Shown one piece after another: positions 6,397-45,753 of a DNA stretch of 64,000 nt. The stretch's first letter is position 1, and each line of letters starts with the position of its first letter. The notes under the pieces are model-generated. The model did no database searches. It saw nothing but the letters and a program-made list of their open reading frames with translations, and had not been told where the DNA came from. The translations under genes were made by a program, and so were the position numbers. This DNA comes from Thiorhodococcus drewsii AZ1 (GTDB lineage Bacteria; Pseudomonadota; Gammaproteobacteria; Chromatiales; Chromatiaceae): the NCBI RefSeq assembly GCF_000224065.1, contig NZ_AFWT01000001.1, forward strand, positions 70,001 to 134,000, in the 5' to 3' direction.

Positions 6397-7695
6397 TCAG
6401 TGACGCGCCCGATGGCTCCGAGATGGACCTACTGGCTGATCCAGCGGGGACGGGAGCATAACGGAAAACTCAGCCGGACCACCCCTTCCTCGACGCAAAT
6501 ACCCGAAAAGCCAGCGCAGCGGCGCGGTCAGGCGCCACGACCGCGAGCGCGTCAGTACACTCAAGGCATCCTGACAACGGCGCGCGGCCTGGGCATGCCG
6601 CTCCTGGCTGATCGACAAGTCCCGGCAGAACTCCGGGATCTGTACCGAGGCATCCTCGGCGTTCAGCGTCGACAACCCGAGCGCCGACAGCTCCGCTTGC
6701 AATCGCTCCATAAAGCGATGCTGTCGCGCCAGCTCCATCAATTCCAAGAACGACTCGGGGCTTATGCGCACGCACCATTTGGCAGCCAGAACGCGCGCAT
6801 GGGCCTCGACCTCTGTGGCCGGCGCACTCACCCCGAATCCCGCGCCCGCATCGATTCGATAAAAGGCGGTCACCACCGACCGCTCGGCGAAATCCGTGTG
6901 CTGGGCGACTTGCAGCCAAAAATCCCAGTCCTCGAAACGATCCAAATCGGGGTCGAAGCGGCAACCGGCGTCCAGCAGCGAACGCGCGAAGAGCACCGTA
7001 TGGATTGGCAGAAAGTTGCCCGCAAGCAACTTCGCGCGCCCGAAGGATTCGCCAAAGCGCTGCGGAAGCAGACGACCATTCGCATCGACCACCTGGCAAT
7101 GGCTATAACTCGCCCGCGCGCCACTCGCGCCGATCGCCGCCCAAAGCTCCTCCAGATGGCTCGGAGCCACATAATCGTCGTCATCGAGTAACAGAAGCCA
7201 ATCACCCCGCGCTGCCATGAGCCCATGGTTTGCCGCCAGCGACCGCTGTAGCGGCACGTCAGAATCGAGCAAACGCACCCGTAGGCCACGATACCCGCCG
7301 GGAAGCGGGCGATGCCCCGCCCCCTTGGCGTTGACGACCAGGCACTCGATTCGGGGATACGTCTGGGCGGCGATGCTGTCCAGTGCCTCGACAAGGGTAT
7401 CTCGATCGATGCTGCGAATGACGACGCTGATCAGGGGCCGATGGAACCCGTCACCCTCCGATGTCGACGCCGCTGGATCTGAGCAATCAGTCACGCGAAG
7501 ACGCCCTATATCGGAGCACGACGGCGAATGAGAAAGCGGCCAACGGCCGAACCCGAATTTTCTCCACCCATGCGCCATCCATAAGGAAAAGGAGGGCAAG
7601 TCTAGAGATCGGGCGGCCGTAAGACAAGCCAAGCGTCGACCTCTAACAACATCCGCCTGGGGCTGCTGGGGGCTCTCAATCACGCATTCCTGCAA
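6397..7695 (-). CDS. Family 2 glycosyltransferase
   Basis: The catalytic domain begins near residue 87 of the longest frame: ISVVIRSIDRDTLVEALDSI, IECLVVNAKG, then GDWLLLLDDDDYVAP, a strong DxD-type motif, and EDWDFWLQ at the base/acceptor position. A C-terminal stretch with SRSWRLTAPLRW is common in GT2 proteins of O-antigen and capsule clusters. The first 86 residues are not conserved-looking, so translation may start later, for example at Met40 (base 7578). It is the first gene of the leftward glycan block, 46 bp before the large fusion gene. Sugar donor and acceptor cannot be read from the sequence. Confidence 0.75.
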   Translation of the reverse strand: MQECVIESPQQPQADVVRGRRLACLTAARSLDLPSFSLWMAHGWRKFGFGRWPLSHSPSCSDIGRLRVTDCSDPAASTSEGDGFHRPLISVVIRSIDRDTLVEALDSIAAQTYPRIECLVVNAKGAGHRPLPGGYRGLRVRLLDSDVPLQRSLAANHGLMAARGDWLLLLDDDDYVAPSHLEELWAAIGASGARASYSHCQVVDANGRLLPQRFGESFGRAKLLAGNFLPIHTVLFARSLLDAGCRFDPDLDRFEDWDFWLQVAQHTDFAERSVVTAFYRIDAGAGFGVSAPATEVEAHARVLAAKWCVRISPESFLELMELARQHRFMERLQAELSALGLSTLNAEDASVQIPEFCRDLSISQERHAQAARRCQDALSVLTRSRSWRLTAPLRWLFGYLRRGRGGPAEFSVMLPSPLDQPVGPSRSHRARH

Positions 7696-7826
7696 TAGAC
7701 TGAATCCAACACTCGGCCAAGCTCAAAAATCGACTCGATCGTCGGATGCCTATCCGTCAACCAAACGTCTTGAGGCGCACCAACGACGCCTTGATCGAGC
7801 CCAACCCACAATAAGGAATCCGTCTC

Positions 7827-8672
7827 ATGCATCGACCCTCATCTCACCTACTCATCGCCGCCGGTTTAACATGGCTCGTCCAGACCGCGCTCGCCGCCCC
7901 CCATTCAGCTCCGTCTCCTGCCCTTACCGAGTCGGCACTCGCGAACACCGCCTGGCAGCTGGTCGGCTATCGCTCGGATGATGGTTTCACCCAGATACCA
8001 GAGGACGCCAAACCGGCACTATTCCGTTTCGAGAAGCGCCGCATGTCTGGCAACATAGGCTGCAATCAGATCTCCGGAGCCTATAACGCAAACGGAGAGG
8101 ACATGAGGTTCGATATCGGGATGGCCGCAAGCCGACGCGGCTGCTCCAAACCGCTCATGCGCCAGGAACGAGCCATCCTCTCCGCCTTGCCACAGGTCGT
8201 CTCCTACCGCATCGAAGGCGATCGGCTCCTGATGCTCGACGCCGCAGGTCAGGAGCTCCTGAAATTCCATGCTGCAAGCCACTCGCCATTGGTCGGGCAC
8301 GTATGGCAACTGAAGGAGTACGACAACGGCTCTGGGAACCTCATCGCGCCACTCAAGGGCGCCGGAATCGACCTGACCTTTCTCGACACCGGAGTGCTGG
8401 GCGGCTCGGATGGATGCAACCGGTATATGAGCGGCTATCTCTCGGATGAGACCCATCTCCACATCGGACCCATCGCCACGACCCGCGTCGCCTGCCCCAA
8501 GACCGATGGACGGGCCGAGCAGGCAAGCGCCTACGCGGCGGCACTCGGCAAGGTGGCCGGATTCGAGATCGATGATGAACGCGGACTCACCCTACTCTCG
8601 ACCGCGAGCACGCCGCTCGCACGCTACCGTGCGTTGGAGGCGAGTCCGTCCGCGACCAAGTCCAACCCCTGA
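7827..8672 (+). CDS. Secreted protein with two META (HslJ-like) domains
   Basis: 281 residues with a cleavable signal peptide (ends TALAAPHS). Two META repeats follow: residues about 38-145 (NTAWQLVGYR, GNIGCNQISGAY, RRGCSKPLMRQE) and about 150-260 (GHVWQLKEYD, GGSDGCNRYMSGY, TTRVACPKTDG). Each has the paired GCN and CP/CS cysteines typical of HslJ, so each may hold a disulfide in the periplasm. HslJ-type proteins are heat-inducible outer-membrane or periplasmic proteins of unclear function. An AAGGA ribosome site lies a few bases before the ATG. Single-gene unit, divergent from the glycosyltransferase block. Confidence 0.8.
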   Translation: MHRPSSHLLIAAGLTWLVQTALAAPHSAPSPALTESALANTAWQLVGYRSDDGFTQIPEDAKPALFRFEKRRMSGNIGCNQISGAYNANGEDMRFDIGMAASRRGCSKPLMRQERAILSALPQVVSYRIEGDRLLMLDAAGQELLKFHAASHSPLVGHVWQLKEYDNGSGNLIAPLKGAGIDLTFLDTGVLGGSDGCNRYMSGYLSDETHLHIGPIATTRVACPKTDGRAEQASAYAAALGKVAGFEIDDERGLTLLSTASTPLARYRALEASPSATKSNP

Positions 8673-8731
8673 CCGCGTCTCGGGATGTATACTGCCGCCT
8701 TCGGTCACAACCCTCCAGCACGAGGTGCCCC

Positions 8732-8929
8732 ATGTTCTGCTGGGCTCGTTACCTTTTCATCGCCCTCGTCACGGCGCTCGGAATCCTGAGCATGCTTGGC
8801 GCTTGCGGTCAGAAGGGACCGCTTTATCTGCCCGAGGACGCCCCCGCACAAGACGGCGGGAAGGAATCGGACGTCCCGGCCGCGCCTGCGGCACCAAGCA
8901 CGTCCGAATCCCAGCCCGATCAACCTTAA
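8732..8929 (+). CDS. lptM: LptM (YifL-type) small lipoprotein
   Basis: 65 residues: signal peptide with lipobox LGAC (Cys near 25) followed by GQKGPLYLPED, the signature of LptM/YifL. In E. coli this lipoprotein binds the LptD-LptE lipopolysaccharide translocon and promotes LptD disulfide maturation. The tail is low-complexity Pro/Ala/Ser. It sits directly upstream of lysA, the usual place in gammaproteobacteria, and is easily missed because of its size. Confidence 0.9.
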   Translation: MFCWARYLFIALVTALGILSMLGACGQKGPLYLPEDAPAQDGGKESDVPAAPAAPSTSESQPDQP

Positions 8930-8958
8930 GCCCAACCTTTGCTCCGACTCGACGCCGA

Positions 8959-10206
8959 ATGGATCACTTCAACGAACGCGATGGCATCCTCCACGCCGAG
9001 GACGTACCACTCACCGAGATCGCCGAACGCTTCGGCACGCCATGCTACGTCTATTCCAAGGCCACGCTCGAACGCCATTGGCGCGCCTTCGACCGTGCCT
9101 TCCGCGACCATCCGCATCTGGTCTGTTTCGCCGTTAAGTCGAACTCCAACCTGGCCGTTCTGAATGTTCTGGCCCGACTTGGTTCGGGATTCGACATCGT
9201 TTCGGGCGGTGAACTGGAACGGGTCCTGGCCGCCGGTGGCGACCCAGCCAAGGTGGTGTTCTCAGGCGTCGGCAAGCGCGAGGACGAGATCCAGCGTGCG
9301 CTGCAGGTCGGCATCCGCTGCTTCAACGTCGAGTCCGAGTCCGAGCTGTTGCGCATCGACCGCATCGCCGGCGAACTCGGGCTCAAGGCGCCAATCTCGC
9401 TGCGCGTCAATCCGGACGTCGACGCCCAGACCCATCCCTACATTTCCACGGGACTGAAGGAGAACAAATTCGGCATCGACATCCGCGTCGCCGAATCCGT
9501 CTATACCCAGGCCGCATCGCTGGCGAACATCCGCATCTGCGGTATCGACTGCCACATCGGCTCCCAGCTGACCGACCTGGCACCCTTCGTCGACGCGCTG
9601 GACCGCGTGCTGCTCCTAGCCGACCGGCTGTGCGCCGCCGGCATCGCCATCGAGCATCTCGATCTCGGCGGTGGTCTCGGCATTCGCTATCGCGATGAGC
9701 AGCCGCCCGAACCGGCCGCCTATGCCGCCGCCATGAGCTACCGACTCGCCGAGCGTCCCTACGAGGTCATCCTGGAGCCCGGACGCGCCATCGCCGGCAA
9801 CGCGGGTGTCCTTCTGACCCGCGTCGAGCATCTCAAGCACACCGATCATCGCCATTTCGCCATCCTGGACGCGGCTATGAACGACCTGCTGCGACCGGCG
9901 CTCTATCAGGCCAATCAGGACATCGTCCGGGTGGTCGGCGCAAGCGATGCCGAGCCGGCCCGTTACGACCTGGTCGGCCCCGTGTGCGAGACCGGCGATT
10001 TCCTCGGCAAGGAGCGCCTGCTCCCGCTGAACGAGGGCGATCTGCTGGCGGTGCGCGGCAGCGGCGCCTACGGCTTCACCATGAGTTCCAACTACAACAG
10101 CCGCCCTCGGGTGGCCGAGATCATGGTCGACGGCACCGAGGCCCATCTGGTGCGCGAGCGCGAGACGATCGCCAGCCTCTTCGCCGGAGAAAGGACACTG
10201 CCGTGA
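8959..10206 (+). CDS. lysA: Diaminopimelate decarboxylase
   Basis: 415 residues from ATG 8959 (MDHFNERDG), the family's normal length; the same frame is open further upstream but overlaps lptM. It converts meso-diaminopimelate to L-lysine with pyridoxal phosphate. Visible motifs: VCFAVKSNSN with the PLP lysine, HIGSQ, LDLGGGLGI, ILEPGRAI, and GPVCETGDFL with the active-site Cys contributed across the dimer. Its TGA overlaps the GTG of the methyltransferase (GTGA), and dapF follows, so two lysine-pathway genes lie in one transcription unit. Confidence 0.96.
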   Translation: MDHFNERDGILHAEDVPLTEIAERFGTPCYVYSKATLERHWRAFDRAFRDHPHLVCFAVKSNSNLAVLNVLARLGSGFDIVSGGELERVLAAGGDPAKVVFSGVGKREDEIQRALQVGIRCFNVESESELLRIDRIAGELGLKAPISLRVNPDVDAQTHPYISTGLKENKFGIDIRVAESVYTQAASLANIRICGIDCHIGSQLTDLAPFVDALDRVLLLADRLCAAGIAIEHLDLGGGLGIRYRDEQPPEPAAYAAAMSYRLAERPYEVILEPGRAIAGNAGVLLTRVEHLKHTDHRHFAILDAAMNDLLRPALYQANQDIVRVVGASDAEPARYDLVGPVCETGDFLGKERLLPLNEGDLLAVRGSGAYGFTMSSNYNSRPRVAEIMVDGTEAHLVRERETIASLFAGERTLP

Positions 10207-36728: not shown

Positions 36729-36864
36729 GAACCCTCGCCGACCGCGACGTATCATGCTGACACGAGGAATCGGTCGCGCCGTGCGACCGGCTCACTGAGT
36801 CGACTTCATGTCCCGCGAGGAGCGCGCGGCTTCGATCATTCTCAGGGGCGTGGAGAACACTAGA

Positions 36865-38490
36865 ATGCCAGCAGGACTTTTATCCAAGACCTATCTCGTC
36901 ATCGACGATTTTCCGGATATGCGCGCGGCGATCCGCAGCATTATTCGCTCAATCGGCGCAACCCAGGTCGACCAGGCGCGTGACGGCAAGGAAGCCATCG
37001 ATCTGATGCAGAAAACCCGCTATGACATCATCCTCTGCGACTACAATCTCGGCCCAGGCAAGGACGGACAACAGATCCTCGAAGAAGCGCGTTATCGTCA
37101 GCTGATCGGCGTCGACACCATTTTCGTCATGATCACGGCTGAAAATACACGCGACATGGTGATGGGCGCGGTGGAGCACATCCCCGATAGCTATCTCTCC
37201 AAACCCTTCACCAAGGAACTGCTGCAGAAACGGTTGGAGAAACTCTACGCACGCAAGGCCGATCTGCAAACGGTCAACAAGGCCCTGATGGCCAAAAACT
37301 ATAACGCCGCGATCGCCGAGCTCGACCGCCTCATCTCCACCAACCCCAAGAACCTCTCCGAGCTTCTGAAGCTCAAGGCCGAGACCTGTATCACGACCAG
37401 CCGATATGATGACGCCAAGGAGATCTACGACCAGGTCCTCGACGCGCGCGAGATCCCCTGGGCGAGACTGGGCCTGGGGAAGGTTCAGTTCTACAAGACC
37501 GACTACCCTCAGGCCCGGGAAACCTTCGAGCAACTGATCGCCCAGGACCCGAATCTCATTCTCGCCTACGACTGGCTGGCCAAGACCCAGTCTGCGCTGA
37601 AGGAATTCACGGTGGCGGAGAAGACGCTTCAGACCGCCGTGAAGCTGTCGCCGCGCGGGCTTAAACGCCAGCAGCTTCTCGGCGACCTGGCACTTGGAAA
37701 CGGCGACAGCGAGCAGGCCGAAATCGCCTACGAACACGCCGTGACGCTGGCCAAAAACTCCGTCTTGAATCATCCCGCGCTATTCGCCGGACTGGCGAAA
37801 TCCAAGTCCGCGAACAACAAACACACGGAGGCGCTCAAGGTCATCGCCGACATCGGCAAGAAGTTCCAAGGCAGCGATGAGGCAGCCTTCTATGTCGCCA
37901 GCACGACGGCCTTGGTGAAACACTCACAGGGGGATACCGAAGGCGCGCAGGAGGCCATGCATGCCGCCGAGGCGGCCATGAAGGATCTTGGAGCGCGCGC
38001 CCAGGATCATCTGTTCGCCCTCGAAATGGCGACGACCTACTCCGAACTCGACGAAACGGACAAGGCCGCAGCCCTGCTTCATCAAACCATCGCCAACAAT
38101 CACGACGAGCACGAATGCCTGGCGCAAATCGTTCAGATCTGCAGCAAGGCCGGCATAGAATACGATGCCGAAAAGGCCATCCGCGAAATTCGGCAGCACG
38201 TCGTCAAGACCAACAACGCGGGCGTTCGACTGATCAAGCAGGGCGACTTCGATGCCGCCATCACACTGCTACGCGAAGCGGCCGAAGAGATGCCGGCCAA
38301 CAAGACCATCAACCTCAATGTGGCCAAGGCCATCATCATGAAGATGGAGCAAGCCGGCGCCACCAGCGAGGACATCCTGGCGGTGCGTCATTACGTGGAG
38401 CGCGTACAGGGGCTTGCACCCGGAGATTGGCGTGTGGCAGACATCCTCCTACGCCTTAGACAGCTTGCCCCCAAGGCCAGCGGAGAGTAG
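36865..38490 (+). CDS. CheY-like receiver fused to TPR repeats
   Basis: 541 residues from ATG 36865 with GGAG nine bases upstream (a longer frame opens at 36808). Residues 8-125 form a receiver domain: acidic pair DD at 14-15, phospho-acceptor D59 in LCDYNLGPG, MITAEN, and YLSKPFTKELL with the conserved Lys. From about 135 to 530 the sequence is helical repeat, reading as multiple TPR units (AEKTLQTAVKLSPRG, EQAEIAYEHAVTLAKN, AAALLHQTIANN). There is no DNA-binding or enzymatic output, so signal is passed by protein contacts. It is followed after 5 bp by a histidine kinase gene, then by VWA and acidic membrane protein genes. Confidence 0.88.
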   Translation: MPAGLLSKTYLVIDDFPDMRAAIRSIIRSIGATQVDQARDGKEAIDLMQKTRYDIILCDYNLGPGKDGQQILEEARYRQLIGVDTIFVMITAENTRDMVMGAVEHIPDSYLSKPFTKELLQKRLEKLYARKADLQTVNKALMAKNYNAAIAELDRLISTNPKNLSELLKLKAETCITTSRYDDAKEIYDQVLDAREIPWARLGLGKVQFYKTDYPQARETFEQLIAQDPNLILAYDWLAKTQSALKEFTVAEKTLQTAVKLSPRGLKRQQLLGDLALGNGDSEQAEIAYEHAVTLAKNSVLNHPALFAGLAKSKSANNKHTEALKVIADIGKKFQGSDEAAFYVASTTALVKHSQGDTEGAQEAMHAAEAAMKDLGARAQDHLFALEMATTYSELDETDKAAALLHQTIANNHDEHECLAQIVQICSKAGIEYDAEKAIREIRQHVVKTNNAGVRLIKQGDFDAAITLLREAAEEMPANKTINLNVAKAIIMKMEQAGATSEDILAVRHYVERVQGLAPGDWRVADILLRLRQLAPKASGE

Positions 38491-38495
38491 ACACG

Positions 38496-39167
38496 ATGGA
38501 TTTTTCCGACATCCTCGCCTCATCCATTCACGACATCAAAAACTCGCTGGGGATGATCCTAAACAACCTCGACGACCTGATCACCAGCCCGGAAAACCAC
38601 ATCAAGGATCCGCGTCAAACCCGGTTGCTTCAGGATGAGGCACGTCGCGTCAACAGCAACCTAATCCAACTCCTGGCCCTCTACAAATTAGGCCACGCCG
38701 AACTGGTCGTACATGTCGCCGAGTACAACCTCGAGGACTTCCTCGATGAGGTGATCGCCGACAACCAGGCGGTCTGCAACGCGCTCGACATCCAACTCGA
38801 TCAATCTTGCGCCCCGGACCTGAGCGGCTACTTCGACTCCGAACTCGTCAGGAGCGTGCTCGACAACGCGATCGGCAATGCCCGCCGTTACGCCAAGAGC
38901 CGTATTCTGTTGAGCGCCGATCACGAGAACGACGGCCTGGTGATCCGCGTCGAGGACGACGGAACGGGCTTCCCGGCACGATTCATCGGCCGATTGGACC
39001 CAACCCACCCGCTGCAACAAGGAGAGGGCGCCGGCCGCACCAAGTTGGGACATTATTTCTCGGCCCAGATCGCCAGCCTGCACAAGACATCCGACCATCA
39101 GGGATACATCCAGCTCAAAAACGGACACCAACTTTCGGGCGGCTGCCTCGAACTCTGGCTGCCCTAA
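38496..39167 (+). CDS. Sensorless histidine kinase
   Basis: 223 residues. H-box at the very N-terminus (SSIHDIKNSLG, His12), then a short dimerisation helix pair, N-box LDNAIGNARRYAKS, G1 VEDDGTGFP and a degenerate G2 region (GRTKLGHYFSAQIASLH). There is no transmembrane or PAS part, so it is soluble and must receive its signal from a partner. It starts 5 bp after the CheY-TPR gene, its likely substrate. Confidence 0.85.
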   Translation: MDFSDILASSIHDIKNSLGMILNNLDDLITSPENHIKDPRQTRLLQDEARRVNSNLIQLLALYKLGHAELVVHVAEYNLEDFLDEVIADNQAVCNALDIQLDQSCAPDLSGYFDSELVRSVLDNAIGNARRYAKSRILLSADHENDGLVIRVEDDGTGFPARFIGRLDPTHPLQQGEGAGRTKLGHYFSAQIASLHKTSDHQGYIQLKNGHQLSGGCLELWLP

Positions 39168-39271
39168 CGGCGTCTGGAGGAAATCACCGGCAGTGCACAT
39201 CGAGTCGCCCGGCAGCTCCTCTGCCGTGCGAAAGGACTCAAGACAATGGACTTAGGTCCGAGACACTCAGT

Positions 39272-41158
39272 ATGTTGCATCCGTTCAATTCGGCACGCTC
39301 CTTCCGTCTGATTCATGGATTCATCGTATCCAGCCTGCGACAGATCACCGGGCAGCGCGCCCTCCTCCTGATCCTGCTGGCCTGGTTCGCGGCAGCCGAG
39401 GCGAAGACCCCGGATATCCGCATCCTGATCGACGTCTCCGGGAGCATGCGCCAAACCGACCCCAAGAACCTGCGGATCCCCGCACTTCAACTGGTCAACG
39501 AACTGCTGCCAGTGGGCGCGAAGGCGGGCGTCTGGTTGTTCGCCGAAAAGACCGAGGTCCTGGCGCCCCCGGGAAACGTCGACGACAAATGGAAAGCCAA
39601 GACCCGCTCGCGACTGGACCGCATCCATTCGCGCGGTCTATTCACCGACATCGAGCGCGCGATCGCGACAGCGACCCTTGGGTGGGAGGCCCCCGACGAG
39701 GCCTACGACCGTCATCTGGTGCTGCTCACGGACGGATTGGTGGACGTCTCAAAGCAGCAGGAAAAAAGCACGGCCTCGCGTGAGCGCATCATTTCGAATC
39801 AGCTCATCAAACTACAGAACGCACGGATCCGGGTCGACACCATCGCCCTCTCGGACAATGTCGACAAGGATCTGCTGAAAACACTCGCCGAACAGACCAA
39901 TGGCTGGCAGGAAACCGCCAAAGACGCGGATAGCCTGCAACGGGTCTTCCTGCACATGCTGGAGCAGACCGCAGCGCCGACGACGGTGCCAATTCAAGGC
40001 AACAAGTTCGGGATCGACGACGGGGTCTCCGAGTTCACCCTACTCGCCTTCCACGATGCCGATGTCGGCACCACCCTGATCGATCCCGACGGGAACAAGA
40101 TCTCGGCCCGCCAGATGGCCCCAGGCGTCGTCTGGCGAGCCGAAGCTGGACACGACCTCATCACCATCGCCAACCCGAAGCCTGGCGAATGGTACCTGCA
40201 AGGCGTTTCGGACCCGGATAACCGTGTGGTCGTCATCACGGATCTCGGAATCGAGGTCGGCGAACTCGCAAATCGGGTGAGCGCCGGGACGGCCCTCAGA
40301 GTCGAGACCTGGCTGACCGACCACCGCCAACCCGTCACCCGACCGGATCTGCTCAAGCTGCTCTCGGCCACCGTGACGCGCACCGCAACCGGGACTCAGG
40401 AGAATGCCGCTCCCGCTCAACCGAAGATCGCCATGGAAGAGGTCGGAGAGATGCCCGAGACACGCGAGGTCGTGGACGCCCCCAAGACCCTGGAGGCGGC
40501 GCCACCGCCGTCGAATGAGGTGGAGATGGCGCTGGATTCGAAAACAGGTCGCTTCCAAGCCGCGCTGAGCACCAACAACCTCGCGCCCGGCGACTATCAG
40601 CTCGAATGCGTCATCGACGGCGGGACCTTCAAACGCCAGGCGGTGCGGCACTTCAAGGTCAGCGGACCGCCGATTTCGGTCGAATACAAGCAACGTCCGC
40701 CATCGGAGGAATTCCCCGCCCACAACATTGAGGTCACGCTCAACGCCGAGGCGGATCTGGTCGACCCCAAGAGCCTCGGCGGCTATCTTCTGCTGAAGGA
40801 CCCCAAGGACAAAACGTCGGTACTCGAACTCAAGGGCACACAGAAACTTCCCATCGGTTTCCGTTTCCCGGCACTGCAGCCAGGGAGTTACGAACTATCG
40901 GGTAAGGTGTTCGCCCGCACCCCGAGCGGCGAACCGATCGTCTTCAAACCGGAGACGGGGCACTTCGATTTCGAATTCGAGGCTCCGCCCACTGCCGAAA
41001 AGAAAGAGCCTTCGGATTTCTCCTGGTTGGACCTCTCCATCGTGCTGGCCGGCGGCAACGTCATCCTGGCGCTCTTCATCGGGCCGACGCTCTGGTTCCT
41101 GAAACAGCCCAAGAAGACATCGAAGAAAGCAGCCAAGACGAAGGATAAGAAGCAATGA
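39272..41158 (+). CDS. VWA-domain membrane-anchored protein
   Basis: 628 residues from ATG 39272. Signal peptide or anchor with a long N-region (LLLILLAWFAAAEA), then a von Willebrand A domain with the MIDAS motif DVSGSM and LLTDG, residues about 47-225. Next come beta-rich periplasmic domains (about 240-570), and near the C-terminus one transmembrane helix (WLDLSIVLAGGNVILALFIG) with a short Lys-rich cytoplasmic tail. The topology is periplasmic sensor-like. The stop overlaps the start of the next gene by 4 bp. Start choice is not certain, since no strong ribosome site was seen. Confidence 0.82.
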   Translation: MLHPFNSARSFRLIHGFIVSSLRQITGQRALLLILLAWFAAAEAKTPDIRILIDVSGSMRQTDPKNLRIPALQLVNELLPVGAKAGVWLFAEKTEVLAPPGNVDDKWKAKTRSRLDRIHSRGLFTDIERAIATATLGWEAPDEAYDRHLVLLTDGLVDVSKQQEKSTASRERIISNQLIKLQNARIRVDTIALSDNVDKDLLKTLAEQTNGWQETAKDADSLQRVFLHMLEQTAAPTTVPIQGNKFGIDDGVSEFTLLAFHDADVGTTLIDPDGNKISARQMAPGVVWRAEAGHDLITIANPKPGEWYLQGVSDPDNRVVVITDLGIEVGELANRVSAGTALRVETWLTDHRQPVTRPDLLKLLSATVTRTATGTQENAAPAQPKIAMEEVGEMPETREVVDAPKTLEAAPPPSNEVEMALDSKTGRFQAALSTNNLAPGDYQLECVIDGGTFKRQAVRHFKVSGPPISVEYKQRPPSEEFPAHNIEVTLNAEADLVDPKSLGGYLLLKDPKDKTSVLELKGTQKLPIGFRFPALQPGSYELSGKVFARTPSGEPIVFKPETGHFDFEFEAPPTAEKKEPSDFSWLDLSIVLAGGNVILALFIGPTLWFLKQPKKTSKKAAKTKDKKQ

Positions 41159-42096
41159 CGGCCATCGAGCTCGGCAGCCTCATCCTCGCGGTGGAGTTCG
41201 GTTTCATCGCCTGGGGAACCCTTTTCCTGCTCCTGCGGCGCAATCGCAACCAACGACACACCGATCAAGACCATGCCAGCGCGGTCCTGGAAGAGCTGCA
41301 AGAGCAGGAGCTAGACCGCCGCGACGCCTTGTCGAACCTGTTCGCGGACACCTACAAACTGGAAGGAAACGAGCTGAGCTCGAAGGTCGACGAATATGTC
41401 GAGCGCGAAAAGGCCTTCTACAGCGCCATGCTGAGTCTCTACCTGGAGCGCGACGGCGCCAAGCTAAGGGATCTTCCGGCCGAGTTGACCAAGGTTCTGA
41501 CCCCCTGGGCGCACATCACGCCGAGCGGCATGGTAGATGCCAGCGAAGTCGGGAGCCTTGAGGAAGAAAAGGCTGCACTGGCACTGGAGCTGGAAAACAC
41601 CCAGCATACGCTCGAACGCCTCATGGACGAATACATGGCGGCCTTCGACAAGAACGAAGCGCCCGACGAACAGGCACCCAAGCCGGCGCCGCAACCCGAA
41701 CCGGAAGAAGAGGAGGAAGCGTTCGAGGAGACATTCGAAAATATCTCCGAGGAAGCGAAGACTCAGACACCACCCACGGAGGACGTGGAAGAGGAACAAC
41801 AGTTCGACGTGCTCGAAGAACCGGAGGATTTGGACGACATTGCACTGAGCGCGCTCGGAATCGAGCCCGATGCCCCGGCGACCGACACGCAGACGACGCC
41901 CCCCGATCAAGACGCGGCAGCGGTCGAGGAAGAGGATGCATTCGAACTCCCGCCCGCGCCAGTCGAGAAGCAACCGGCGGATGACGACGAACAGGCCGAC
42001 AAGCCGCCAAGCGACGCCGACCTCGATGATGAGCAGGCGCGAGAAGAGCTGGAAGGGTTGGCCGACCTCTTCGGCGGTCCCTCCGATAAGAAATGA
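41155..42096 (+). CDS. Acidic single-pass membrane protein, unknown
   Basis: 313 residues, coupled to the VWA gene by an ATGA overlap. One N-terminal transmembrane helix (about 5-27) is followed by Arg residues, a charged helical region to about 165 (including a likely coiled coil around 135-160), and a long Glu/Asp/Pro-rich disordered tail ending LEGLADLFGGPSDKK. I recognise no family. The tail's short hydrophobic stretches (DIALSALGIEP, LEGLADLFGG) in acidic surroundings look like docking motifs. Probably the last gene of the four-gene module. Confidence 0.7.
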   Translation: MTAIELGSLILAVEFGFIAWGTLFLLLRRNRNQRHTDQDHASAVLEELQEQELDRRDALSNLFADTYKLEGNELSSKVDEYVEREKAFYSAMLSLYLERDGAKLRDLPAELTKVLTPWAHITPSGMVDASEVGSLEEEKAALALELENTQHTLERLMDEYMAAFDKNEAPDEQAPKPAPQPEPEEEEEAFEETFENISEEAKTQTPPTEDVEEEQQFDVLEEPEDLDDIALSALGIEPDAPATDTQTTPPDQDAAAVEEEDAFELPPAPVEKQPADDDEQADKPPSDADLDDEQAREELEGLADLFGGPSDKK

Positions 42097-42159: not shown

Positions 42160-43827
42160 TCAGAGTGTCGGCTCGGCGACACCGGTCGGCTGGTTCTGGA
42201 TCAGCGACTCATGCACATTCTGCGGCGGAACGACCGTCGCATCCCGCCCCTGTCTGAACGACTGTTCCTCGACGATGACCCGATAGGCCTTGTCCAGCAT
42301 CAGGGCCCGTTCGGCGGAAGGAAGAATCAGCGTCCCCATATCTTCGTGCAAGGACTGGATTGCCTCGGGACGCAAGGCCCCTTCGGCATCGAAGAAGCGC
42401 GCCATCACCTCGGTATTGGCGCGAAACTCGTCACCAGCCCCGTTGATCTCCAGATAGCGACTGTATTCATAGCCGCCGTCCTCCAGACGCGGTTCAGGAA
42501 GACCGGCCAGTCCGCGCTGACTCCAGTGGAACCAGCCGCCCTGATCGGTCTCGTGCCCGAGACGGCGCGGGAAGGAGAAAATGGTATCCGTGGTGGCACC
42601 GATCCCGCCATGACAGCCCATGCAAAACAGCGTCTCTTCCTGAGACTGCGGACGCAGACGACCGACGCGGTCCTCGATGAATCCCTGATAGACCCAGCCC
42701 TGAGTGAACATTCCGCGCTCGAAGTTTCCCGGCACGGACTTGAGGATGTCGGGATCCAACGCCCGCTCCGCCCCCTCGCGGTCATTGATACCCTTGAGCT
42801 CGGCATAGCTGTACCAGGTGTTCTTGCGTGCGTATCTGAGCTCCTTCATCCGCGCGGCTAGACGCGGCGCGCCCTCTTCATCCAGATCGATATAGCGGAC
42901 GCTGTGCAGGAACTCGGTGCCCTCTGGGAAGAGACCGGCCGCCAGATGGACCTCGCCCCGCGCTTGCGACCTACCCGCCCGTCCGACATAGGACATGGTG
43001 CGACCTTCCAGCGGCGCCCAGTCGAAGACGATCCTGGTCGCCGTGCCCAGATGTCCGTCCTTGTCCAAATCCACCCCGAGGCCAATTTCGTCGACCGGAT
43101 CGATGTGCACATCCTGACGCCGGACCAGCGACTCGACGATCGCCAAATTGATGTCATAGATGCGCGGATCGAATCGACCCTCGGCATCCTGCTGGAAGGC
43201 GTTCGCCAAACGGATGAGGACGTCGTCCGTCGACCCGTTGGTGGGCCAGAAGGTGCCGGGAAAGGGCGCGTAGCCGAACGCCCGCCAGCCGCTATATCCC
43301 TGCTCCGGGGTTCGATCGAATCCCTGGTCGTCGAACGCAAAATAGGCGTCTGGCACATAGCCGTCCCAGCGTCCGTTCTGGTCGAGATCCCAAGTCTCGG
43401 GAAGACTTTGGGTCAGGGTTTCGGCCAGGATCGGACGGCCCGAATCGTCGCGATAGTTGTCGGTACGAACATAGTCGAGGATCGCCATGTCGCTGATCGC
43501 CGCCACCTGGGCGCTGCGATCGACCCGCAGATTGCTCCAGGGATTCTCCAGCGCATCGCCCGGCAGGCTGTAGCTGAGCTGTAGATCGTTGTCGTCGAGA
43601 TAGGTCGGAATGCGACCGCGCGTATGACAGACGAAACAGGGATTGAAGATCCGCCCAGCCGCATCCTCGGTCTTGGTATAGCACTGGGGGCTGATATAGG
43701 CGGTCAGATTGCCGATCCGGGCGTCGCTCAGGTCGACGATCGAATCGCCGGTCGCGACATCGTCGGCCAAGGTGGCGCCAACCAACACCAGGCCACAGAA
43801 ACCGCTGGCATAGATCATATTTTTCAT
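42160..43827 (-). CDS. Secreted di-haem c-type cytochrome, unknown role
   Basis: 555 residues from ATG 43827, which has GGAG at good spacing; the frame continues 14 codons upstream. Signal peptide ends near TLADD. Two CxxCH haem-binding motifs: CFVCH at 64-68 and CMGCH at 402-406. Between them are two calcium-loop-like stretches, DLDQNGRWDG and DLDKDGHLGT. The rest gives no family I can name. It follows phoX in the same direction 81 bp downstream, so they may be cotranscribed, linking a periplasmic redox protein to phosphate scavenging or to an unrelated secreted oxidase. Confidence 0.75.
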   Translation of the reverse strand: MKNMIYASGFCGLVLVGATLADDVATGDSIVDLSDARIGNLTAYISPQCYTKTEDAAGRIFNPCFVCHTRGRIPTYLDDNDLQLSYSLPGDALENPWSNLRVDRSAQVAAISDMAILDYVRTDNYRDDSGRPILAETLTQSLPETWDLDQNGRWDGYVPDAYFAFDDQGFDRTPEQGYSGWRAFGYAPFPGTFWPTNGSTDDVLIRLANAFQQDAEGRFDPRIYDINLAIVESLVRRQDVHIDPVDEIGLGVDLDKDGHLGTATRIVFDWAPLEGRTMSYVGRAGRSQARGEVHLAAGLFPEGTEFLHSVRYIDLDEEGAPRLAARMKELRYARKNTWYSYAELKGINDREGAERALDPDILKSVPGNFERGMFTQGWVYQGFIEDRVGRLRPQSQEETLFCMGCHGGIGATTDTIFSFPRRLGHETDQGGWFHWSQRGLAGLPEPRLEDGGYEYSRYLEINGAGDEFRANTEVMARFFDAEGALRPEAIQSLHEDMGTLILPSAERALMLDKAYRVIVEEQSFRQGRDATVVPPQNVHESLIQNQPTGVAEPTL

Positions 43828-43908
43828 CGCAAGTTGCTCCATGAAGCGCACGAACGCACGGGAGCGCATCTATTCTGGATGCGCTCCCGTCGAGCTCGAG
43901 ATCGCCGA

Positions 43909-45753
43909 TCAGTCCAGCGGTGGGAAGGGGCCGATATAGCCGACGTGCGATTCCTTGTCGTCTGGGCTCAGAGCCTGATCCGCGTCAGACTCGCCGTAGG
44001 GATGCTGAGTGACCAGGGTCAGATAGCCGTGACCCTGGATGTTTGCAGCCCAGAAAGGCGAGGTCGTCTCCGCACCATAGGGCGTGGTGGCGATGCGGGT
44101 CAGTGCCTTGGCATCGATGTTGTAGCTCCAGACATAGTCGTTCTGGTGGGCGCTGGTGTCCTCGCCGATGACCAGAGTCCGATACTTGGGCAGATAGGTC
44201 AGGTTATCGGGCGAGGCGATGCCCTCTACGTCACAGGTGTTTGCGGACAGGTCGGTGCCGCTGTAGTCCTTCGCCTGACCGGCAATCAGGCCCCACATGT
44301 TGTGAGCGACATAGTCGCTGTCGATCGCATTCCCCTCGGTATCCGAGATCGCCCCCTGGACGTTCATACCGTAAACGGCACCGCACTTGTTCTTGGTGAG
44401 ACGAATATGATTCGGCCCGCCTACGTCCTGAGAAGCACCGTCCTCCATGCCCTTGGCGACCTCGCTGATAGCGACATAGAGCACCTTGTCGTCGGGGTTG
44501 TAGGTCAGACCTTCCTCCTTGCGGAACTCGGTCGTTGCCCCCTTGTGCGCCGCATAGAGACGGGTTTCTAGACGCGAAGCGATTTTGTCCATGCCAGACT
44601 TGACACGTGTGCAGAGCAGACCCTCGTCGTAGGTGTTGGTGCTGGTGAAACCGTCCGGGCAGGTGCCGGCCTCGGCGTCGAGCGGTTCGACGCGCTCGAA
44701 CATATCGGCGAAGGTGGTCTTGCCCTCGATGGCGGCACGAATCTCGTCGTTGCTGGCATGACCGAGATTGATCCATTCGATATCGGCGCGACCGGAGCCC
44801 TCCCCCGAGGTCTGAATCCAGCGCGCAGCATAGAGGGTGCCGGAGCTCAGCACCTTGGCGCGATCGGCGACGAAGAGGAAGAGACCCACGTTGGTGCCGT
44901 CGTCGGAGAGATAGACGGTCCGCGCGTCGGGCATCACGTAGGCCAATTCATGGGCGAAACGGCCCATGGCGAAATGCTTGGCGACCCGGTTCCGACCATT
45001 CGCCGAGGTGACCTTGATCTCGGGAATCCAGCCGAACATGTAGCCGAAATAGGCTGCGTTCTCGGCGGTATTCTCGATCTTGTTGTAATCGGCGATGGCC
45101 TGCATGTGAGCGTCGTGCCAAGTCGGATCGTCGAACCAGGCCTGGTTCTTGGCTTCGGCATTGAACACGGCCATCGGCGGCTCGTATTCCTCCGAACCAA
45201 GATGGCTGTTCCAGGGCGTAGTCACGCCGGCACAGTTGACGTAGGTCCCGTAGACCTCGGAGAAATCCACCGGGCGGGTGGACAGCGCCGTGAGATTGCC
45301 CTCGGCATCCTGATCCAACTTGGTGACATAGGCGCCACCGACACTGCATTCGAGCTGGGTCACCGCAAACAGACTGGTTCCATAGCGCAGCAGCGAGGTG
45401 TGATCCGGCCCCGAACCATTGGTGCAGACCCAGGGACTGGCGTCCTCTTGAAGCATCGGCTGACCGTCCTTGTCCTTGAGCAGCCCGAAGACGGCGGTCT
45501 CGCTGCCGCGACCGTCGAGCTTGCTCAAGGTCTGGTTGGTGCGCACCAGATCGTGATAACCAATGGGATAGGTCGTGCCGTCGATGGTCACACTGTCCGA
45601 TGCGCGAATCGCTCGCTTCTCGTCCTGAGTGAGCGGAACCGAGACCTCGGAGAACTCAAGCGTTCCGAAATCGGCGGACGTCGTCTGGCTGCAACCGAGC
45701 GCCAGCATCAGCACCGGCAGGCTGCACATGGCTTTACTGAAGGCATGGGTCAT
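43909..45753 (-). CDS. phoX: PhoX-family (DUF839) phosphatase, lipoprotein form
   Basis: 614 residues. The N-terminus is a type II signal (lipobox LALGC), not the twin-arginine signal usual for PhoX. The body shows NCAGVTTPWNSHLGSEEY, corresponding to the PhoX metal-site segment (NCxGGxTPWGTWLTCEE in typical members), FGYMFGWIPEI, the ELAYVMPD and VYLSDDG stretch, and GIASPDNLTYLP. PhoX enzymes are calcium/iron phosphatases releasing phosphate from organic esters. Several substitutions in the NCAG motif (Thr for Gly, Ser for Thr) mean that activity should not be assumed. Confidence 0.82.
   Translation of the reverse strand: MTHAFSKAMCSLPVLMLALGCSQTTSADFGTLEFSEVSVPLTQDEKRAIRASDSVTIDGTTYPIGYHDLVRTNQTLSKLDGRGSETAVFGLLKDKDGQPMLQEDASPWVCTNGSGPDHTSLLRYGTSLFAVTQLECSVGGAYVTKLDQDAEGNLTALSTRPVDFSEVYGTYVNCAGVTTPWNSHLGSEEYEPPMAVFNAEAKNQAWFDDPTWHDAHMQAIADYNKIENTAENAAYFGYMFGWIPEIKVTSANGRNRVAKHFAMGRFAHELAYVMPDARTVYLSDDGTNVGLFLFVADRAKVLSSGTLYAARWIQTSGEGSGRADIEWINLGHASNDEIRAAIEGKTTFADMFERVEPLDAEAGTCPDGFTSTNTYDEGLLCTRVKSGMDKIASRLETRLYAAHKGATTEFRKEEGLTYNPDDKVLYVAISEVAKGMEDGASQDVGGPNHIRLTKNKCGAVYGMNVQGAISDTEGNAIDSDYVAHNMWGLIAGQAKDYSGTDLSANTCDVEGIASPDNLTYLPKYRTLVIGEDTSAHQNDYVWSYNIDAKALTRIATTPYGAETTSPFWAANIQGHGYLTLVTQHPYGESDADQALSPDDKESHVGYIGPFPPLD

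Follow-up and report, generated by a model that had tools for sequence, protein, structure and literature searches.

Four consecutive genes, here called P1 to P4, lie on the forward strand of a 64,000-nucleotide stretch of DNA that was analysed as a whole and is referred to below as the window. The host of this four-gene cluster is a purple sulfur bacterium. P1 and P2 are 5 bp apart, P2 and P3 are separated by 104 bp, and P3 and P4 overlap by 4 bp. These places and spacings, read from the coordinates of the open reading frames, agree exactly with those given in an earlier note on this DNA, and domain searches and structure models bear out its description of the four products as a receiver-TPR protein, a kinase without a sensor domain, a VWA protein with a MIDAS site and a C-terminal membrane helix, and a one-helix protein with an acidic tail. 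Downstream, two genes lie on the minus strand (42160-43869 and 43909-45753 of the window), the first of which shows haem-type CxxCH motifs by eye, and homologues of both are also found downstream at a locus from the same genus (L215).

Features of the four-gene cluster, in coordinates of the window
Feature	Position	Strand	Basis and remarks
P1, REC-TPR protein, 541 aa	36865..38490	+	ORF call, domain search, homologue alignment
P1 receiver domain	36889..37254	+	Alignment, match to CheY; D59 codon at 37039-37041
P1 TPR array, about aa 140-500	37282..38364	+	Domain search
P2, cytosolic histidine kinase without sensor domain, 223 aa	38496..39167	+	His12 codon at 38529-38531
P3, VWA-bearing MotW/TIGR03503 relative, 628 aa	39272..41158	+	Domain search, alignment, structure model
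P3 VWA domain with MIDAS residues	39404..39976	+	Alignment, model; Z about 16-18 to VWA domains
P3 MotW/TIGR03503-like beta-sandwich region	39989..40981	+	1.4e-36, 126 bits; hhalign 4e-52
P3 C-terminal transmembrane helix with Asn596, kept in most relatives	41024..41104	+	Alignment, model
P4, one transmembrane helix, helical hairpin, coil and acidic tail, 313 aa	41155..42096	+	ORF, model
P4 transmembrane stretch with Glu14	41176..41247	+	Hydropathy, approximate limits
P4 disordered acidic tail, aa 170-285	41662..42009	+	Model; FliM-like peptides here in some relatives
P4 C-terminal helix, aa 287-306, with ELEGLADLF	42013..42072	+	Model; conserved among four-gene relatives

The first two genes encode a two-component pair. 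In the domain search, P1 combines a receiver (Response_reg, 2.6e-19) with TPR repeats (TPR_19, 2.6e-22); an in-frame ATG lies upstream at 36808, and the aligned homologues favour the start at 36865. Residues D15, D59, T91, Y110, and K113 of the receiver are invariant among 13 aligned sequences, and the acidic residue, phospho-accepting Asp, Thr, and Lys of a two-component receiver are all present. Its top match among solved structures is CheY (2chy, 8.8e-19). P2 matches HATPase_c (2.6e-8) and carries both the His and the ATP-binding boxes of a histidine kinase, with His12 (in 12 of 12), N128, D154, G156, and G158 invariant among the aligned homologues. P1 adjoins P2 in 75 of 80 loci, the best of at least 524 relatives, in either order and with one pair divergent, and this pairing suggests that P2 may pass its phosphate to P1. 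Among the matches listed, P1-P2 is present in Pseudomonadota and Nitrospirota, and clustering of its other neighbours gave no constant partner gene. Two Thiocystis loci (L121, L122) hold REC-TPR paralogues in tandem without a kinase, and in the genome of Thiocystis minor the end of P1 is followed by P2, P3, and P4 in a row (L203).

P3 consists of a signal peptide, a VWA domain, beta-sandwich domains, one transmembrane helix, and a Lys-rich tail. The VWA domain (E 6.9e-9 to 1.8e-8 in the domain search) is of the MIDAS type: it has the DxSxS motif, the further Asp, and, in the model, the VWA fold, and D54, S56, S58, and D154 are invariant in 23 of 23 aligned sequences. A search of P3 against PDB sequences gave no match at 0.1. 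At two loci (L131, 505-2289; L133, 3597-5381) the MIDAS motif of P3 appears lost by eye, and P4 in these reverse-order clusters is about 500 aa long. Another, distantly related VWA gene is present in the window's genome (28% identity; L082, G000:C120:29000-44000, 7272-9633), and after it comes a P4-like gene with a transmembrane Glu.

P4 matched no Pfam or NCBIfam model at E 1, and a fold search with its coil-rich, partly disordered model gave nothing at 0.001. The model consists of one N-terminal helix, a helical hairpin, coil, a disordered acidic tail, and a final helix (287-306), whose ELEGLADLF is shared by most of the four-gene relatives listed. A P4-type gene usually follows P3, often with the same 4-bp overlap. 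By an iterated profile it is adjacent in 102 of 127 distinct P3 rows, and in L081-L085, which are among the rows without a profile-detected P4, the next gene is P4-like by eye. In 96 of the 102 pairs, an Asn in the P3 helix goes with a Glu in the P4 helix (95 by script, and L217, where the script missed the P3 helix, with its Asn read by eye). Thr replaces the Asn, with the Glu kept, in four pairs of one clade (L235-L238), and two pairs (L077, L079) have neither residue. Among the 25 P3 rows without a detected P4, the Asn is kept in 15 and absent from 9, and no helix was found by rule in one (L117). L049, L175, and L179, in which P3 lies beside P1 without P4, also lack the transmembrane Asn; L069, one of the nine, is an exception in that a P4-like gene with a transmembrane Glu follows. 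Judged from sequence, this pairing is consistent with a polar contact between P3 and P4 in the membrane, and the independent losses are few. Three Methylococcaceae loci (L202, L204, L205) have two P4-type genes each; in the Methylomonas locus (L204) the two form a tandem behind P3, and both have a transmembrane Glu. At L115 and L117, P3 has no P4, and the next gene resembles a class II glutamine amidotransferase by eye.

From residue 238, P3 matches the NCBIfam hypothetical family TIGR03503 (1.4e-36), with 126.2 bits against a family cut-off of 305.6 bits. Aligned by hhalign, a 23-protein P3 profile and the TIGR03503 proteins correspond over 364 columns from P3 residue 227 (4e-52). The homology spans about two thirds of the length of P3, and the shared part includes the Ig-like region and the C-terminal transmembrane helix. 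In five TIGR03503-proper proteins (L108-L112) we found no VWA domain and no adjoining P4-like gene. The family occurs in 12 of 150 phylum genomes, five of them above the cut-off, and in 0 of 14 control genomes. Its genes are adjoined by dnaQ-like and rnhA-like genes, named by eye, in 5 of 5 loci. In Vibrio cholerae, VC2233 is a gene that we take to be dnaQ. VC2234 is given as rnhA (PMC6606805), two tags from VC2232, which is MotW. MotW is described as having a signal peptide, three Ig-like domains, one C-proximal transmembrane helix, and a short positive tail; it is polar in a HubP-dependent manner, and its deletion leads to defects in tumbling frequency and speed (PMC8789113). By architecture and gene order, TIGR03503 is very probably the MotW family, with VC2232 known here by its description rather than its sequence, and P3 would then be a known type of motility regulator extended by a VWA domain. 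TIGR03503 is not mentioned by name in the open-access papers searched. The earlier note could match the genes to no named system; with the TIGR03503/MotW homology this can be narrowed for P3 only.

The distribution of P3 also leads toward the flagellum. We used a class sample of 185 evenly drawn genomes of Gammaproteobacteria and a family sample of 147 Chromatiaceae genomes, and in both sought the flagellar switch gene fliM as PF02154, a test chosen after the tail peptides described below had been seen. In these comparisons, which leave shared descent and genome size in, fliM is present in 95 of 95 family genomes with P3 and in 12 of the 52 without it (Fisher 1e-25), or in 29 of 29 against 5 of 19 at the level of genera (2e-8). 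In each of three genera (g178, g179, g197), the sole member without fliM also lacks P3. For the class sample the figures are 45 of 48 with P3 at E<=1e-20 against 47 of 137 (9e-14), P3 matches at E 1e-20 to 1e-3 (23 of 71 genomes) not being counted as present. Genomes with P1 at E<=1e-40 carry fliM in 66 of 67 cases in the family and 16 of 18 in the class, where P1 matches at E 1e-40 to 1e-20 (2 of 20) were likewise not counted. P3 is absent from 12 of the 107 family genomes with fliM, so it is not needed for the flagellum. We consider the tie of the module to motility well supported, and the four genes point to an undescribed swimming-control system in the flagella-bearing genomes sampled. Two other readings were rejected. 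PilN is present in 145 of 147 family genomes, whatever their P3 state, and therefore a type IV pilus reading is unable to explain the P3 pattern. By eye, the gene after P3 in L113 and L116 encodes a MoxR-like ATPase, and L091 has MoxR- and CoxE-like genes ahead of P1-P2; with no other MoxR case in the loci examined, these are too few for a MoxR/VWA chaperone reading to hold in general.

The genes might instead encode a general envelope-sensing complex that has nothing to do with swimming and is merely kept by flagellated lineages with larger genomes. Periplasmic MIDAS and beta-sandwich domains would suit such a complex, as would a gene resembling, by eye, a lipid A acyltransferase, which many of the unlinked P3-P4 pairs examined have upstream (L244, L246, L247, L249, L250, L252, and others). 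Most neighbourhoods, moreover, contain no che or fliM gene: Che-type genes lie nearby in 5 of the 227 loci searched (L059, L070, L087, L090, L099), a count that leaves out ParA-like matches in five further Nitrospirota loci besides L090, and fliM in 0 of 227. What makes this explanation unlikely is the presence of fliM in all 95 P3-bearing family genomes, a figure in which genome size is uncontrolled, together with the joint absence of fliM and P3 in members of g178, g179, and g197 and the kinship of P3 to MotW.

As to how the four genes are held together, P3 was found in 71 and P4 in 16 of the 185 class genomes (both at E<=1e-3), P1 in 20 (E<=1e-20), and P2 in 23 (E<=1e-10), and P3-P4 is spread across Gammaproteobacteria. 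In the family sample, P1 is present in 67 genomes (E<=1e-40) and P3 in 95 (E<=1e-8), and the two lie close together in 29 of 147, the window's included. The 28 other family loci, which were chosen for fetching by the proximity of P1 and P3, all have P1-P2-P3-P4 in the window's order, with an interval of more than 1 kb inside the cluster in two of them (L223, L231). With all four genes in the same order at 28 further loci, the cluster is more than chance, and, with homologues of the four found together elsewhere, the claim of the earlier note that this is a real module stands. Named holders among the matches listed are Allochromatium humboldtianum, Marichromatium gracile, and a Chromatiaceae MAG (L118-L120). 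Upstream of the cluster lies purD in 19 of the 28 loci; no purD was detected in L235-L242 or in L219, whose sequence ends soon after P1. The opposite order, P3-P4-P1-P2, occurs in L131, L133, L161, and L164, and P3-P1-P2 without P4 in L049, L175, and L179, so P4 is not essential to the link between P1 and P3. In a tree of 127 P1 rows, made by a quick method and with some long branches, 30 forward-linked rows fall inside one starred clade of 34, while seven reverse-linked rows lie elsewhere with unlinked lineages between, and the labels need five changes.

A single, indivisible four-gene module is not what we find, since the two bicistrons occur apart as well. Among 33 P1-carrying genomes, many of them metagenome bins, P3 is present in 13 and absent from 20, and P1-P2 therefore does not need P3; conversely, P3 has no P1 nearby in 66 of the 95 family genomes that carry it. 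The two pairs could thus be unrelated neighbours, with a motility factor in P3-P4 beside a general REC-TPR/kinase pair in P1-P2, as their standing apart in most genomes seen would suggest. They have been joined in two orders, however, in separate parts of the P1 tree, and P3 is present in 66 of 67 family genomes with P1 against 29 of 80 without it (a weaker tie in the class sample, 11 of 18 against 37 of 167), which leaves mere neighbourhood quite improbable. Very improbable is a VieB-like P1, which would inhibit another sensor kinase and act on c-di-GMP control rather than dock to P4: VieB is described as a REC-TPR auxiliary that inhibits VieS (PMC4352251), and VieS is reported as mutated in three of six sequenced motW-deletion suppressors, but two of the other three are mutated in FliG (PMC8789113) and P1 has its own kinase gene adjoining in 75 of the 80 best of at least 524 relatives. 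A link of the module to VieSAB is, by this analogy, suggestive only.

The tails of P4 offer a possible contact with CheY-like receivers. LSQxEIDxLL is given as the CheY-binding motif of FliM (PMC5677366), and a pattern search found LSQ[DE]E[IV]DALL (LTQ in one) at the FliM N-terminus in 38 of 38 FliM loci fetched. The core [DE]ID[AS][LM]L occurs 24 times in 22 of 104 P4 tails, with the strict motif absent from the other 82; 200 shuffle sets, which leave shared descent in, gave a mean of 0.1 and a maximum of 1, and reversed tails gave 0. Loosening the core raises the number of tails to 25; four-gene loci account for 14 of these, and about seven lineages are represented when the list is read by eye. 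Scored with a full 12-position FliM matrix, eight tails reach at least 5 (shuffles: mean 0.2, maximum 2), an excess that is less marked yet still clear. Nine of the 104 tails, most of them from one clade, contain a FliN-like W-A peptide, against a mean of 0.0. The window's own P4 tail has neither a strict FliM-like core nor a strict FliN-like peptide, and carries only a diverged DLDDIALSALG stretch and the ELEGLADLF helix. In L265 the P4 tail has DDIWAEALAEQ, closely like DDWAAALAEQ of a FliN-like ORF in L285.

We therefore favour, with a probability of about 0.58, a flagellar motility-control module of two units, a P3-P4 membrane receptor and a cytosolic P2/P1 pair. In the wiring that we infer, the first unit would be P3, a MotW-type protein with a periplasmic MIDAS-type VWA domain, whose transmembrane Asn would be set against the Glu of the P4 helix, and the two proteins may form an inner-membrane receptor for something periplasmic. 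The kinase P2 and its CheY-like REC-TPR partner P1 would be the second unit. What acts on the VWA domain to alter the P3-P4 complex could be a ligand, a component of the wall or pole, or a mechanical state; the P4 tail might then dock the P1 receiver, or CheY itself, at the membrane, while P2 would set the phosphorylation of P1, and motor reversal or speed would presumably be tuned as the output. The envelope-sensing complex put forward in the earlier note survives in part: a periplasmic MIDAS domain outside, and the TPR array and acidic tail as assembly surfaces inside, fit what we find, and the single module does not. It is possible, if somewhat doubtful, that P4 is an undescribed kind of membrane-anchored decoy or hub mimicking FliM/FliN-like N-termini, through which the VWA receptor would draw phosphorylated CheY-like receivers away from the motor. 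In the four-gene form P1 would be the receiver captured, and with its TPR array and P2 might make up a second, envelope-gated chemotaxis-like circuit.

On the two-unit motility-control reading, P4 becomes a candidate membrane partner for the MotW family, the VWA domain its candidate site of ligand binding, and P1-P2 a candidate phospho-circuit. In the titles and abstract openings listed for the open-access papers searched, we found no description of a VWA / REC-TPR / kinase module, of P4, or of such a joining. Several known systems nevertheless resemble single parts. MotW/TIGR03503 is like P3 in its reported signal peptide, Ig-like periplasmic domains, C-proximal transmembrane helix, short positive tail, and flagellar link, and is homologous to it from residue 227 to about the transmembrane helix, but the five proper members have neither the VWA domain nor an adjoining P4-like gene. 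PilY1-type sensors share with P3 a VWA domain in an envelope signalling protein, which has been tied to surface sensing; PilY1, however, is described as a pilus protein, whereas P3 is anchored by its transmembrane helix and PilN is present regardless of P3 state. The polar hubs HubP and FimV are, as described, like P4 in having one transmembrane helix and a long acidic cytoplasmic part, yet P4 matches no LysM or TPR family. VieB of Vibrio cholerae, compared by layout only, has a receiver followed by TPRs and no DNA-binding output, as does P1, but is described as a member of a hybrid-kinase phosphorelay (PMC4352251), whereas P1 has a small sensorless kinase and a VWA receptor adjoining. Finally, CheY and Cle with FliM come close in two respects, CheY being the top solved match of the P1 receiver and the FliM docking core being present in some P4 tails; P1 differs by its added TPR array, and the peptide sits on the membrane-anchored tail of P4 rather than on the motor. 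If P4 tails do bind CheY-like receivers, docking sites of the switch type would not be confined to the flagellar motor, and signals from the envelope or surface could reach motor control outside the chemoreceptor arrays.
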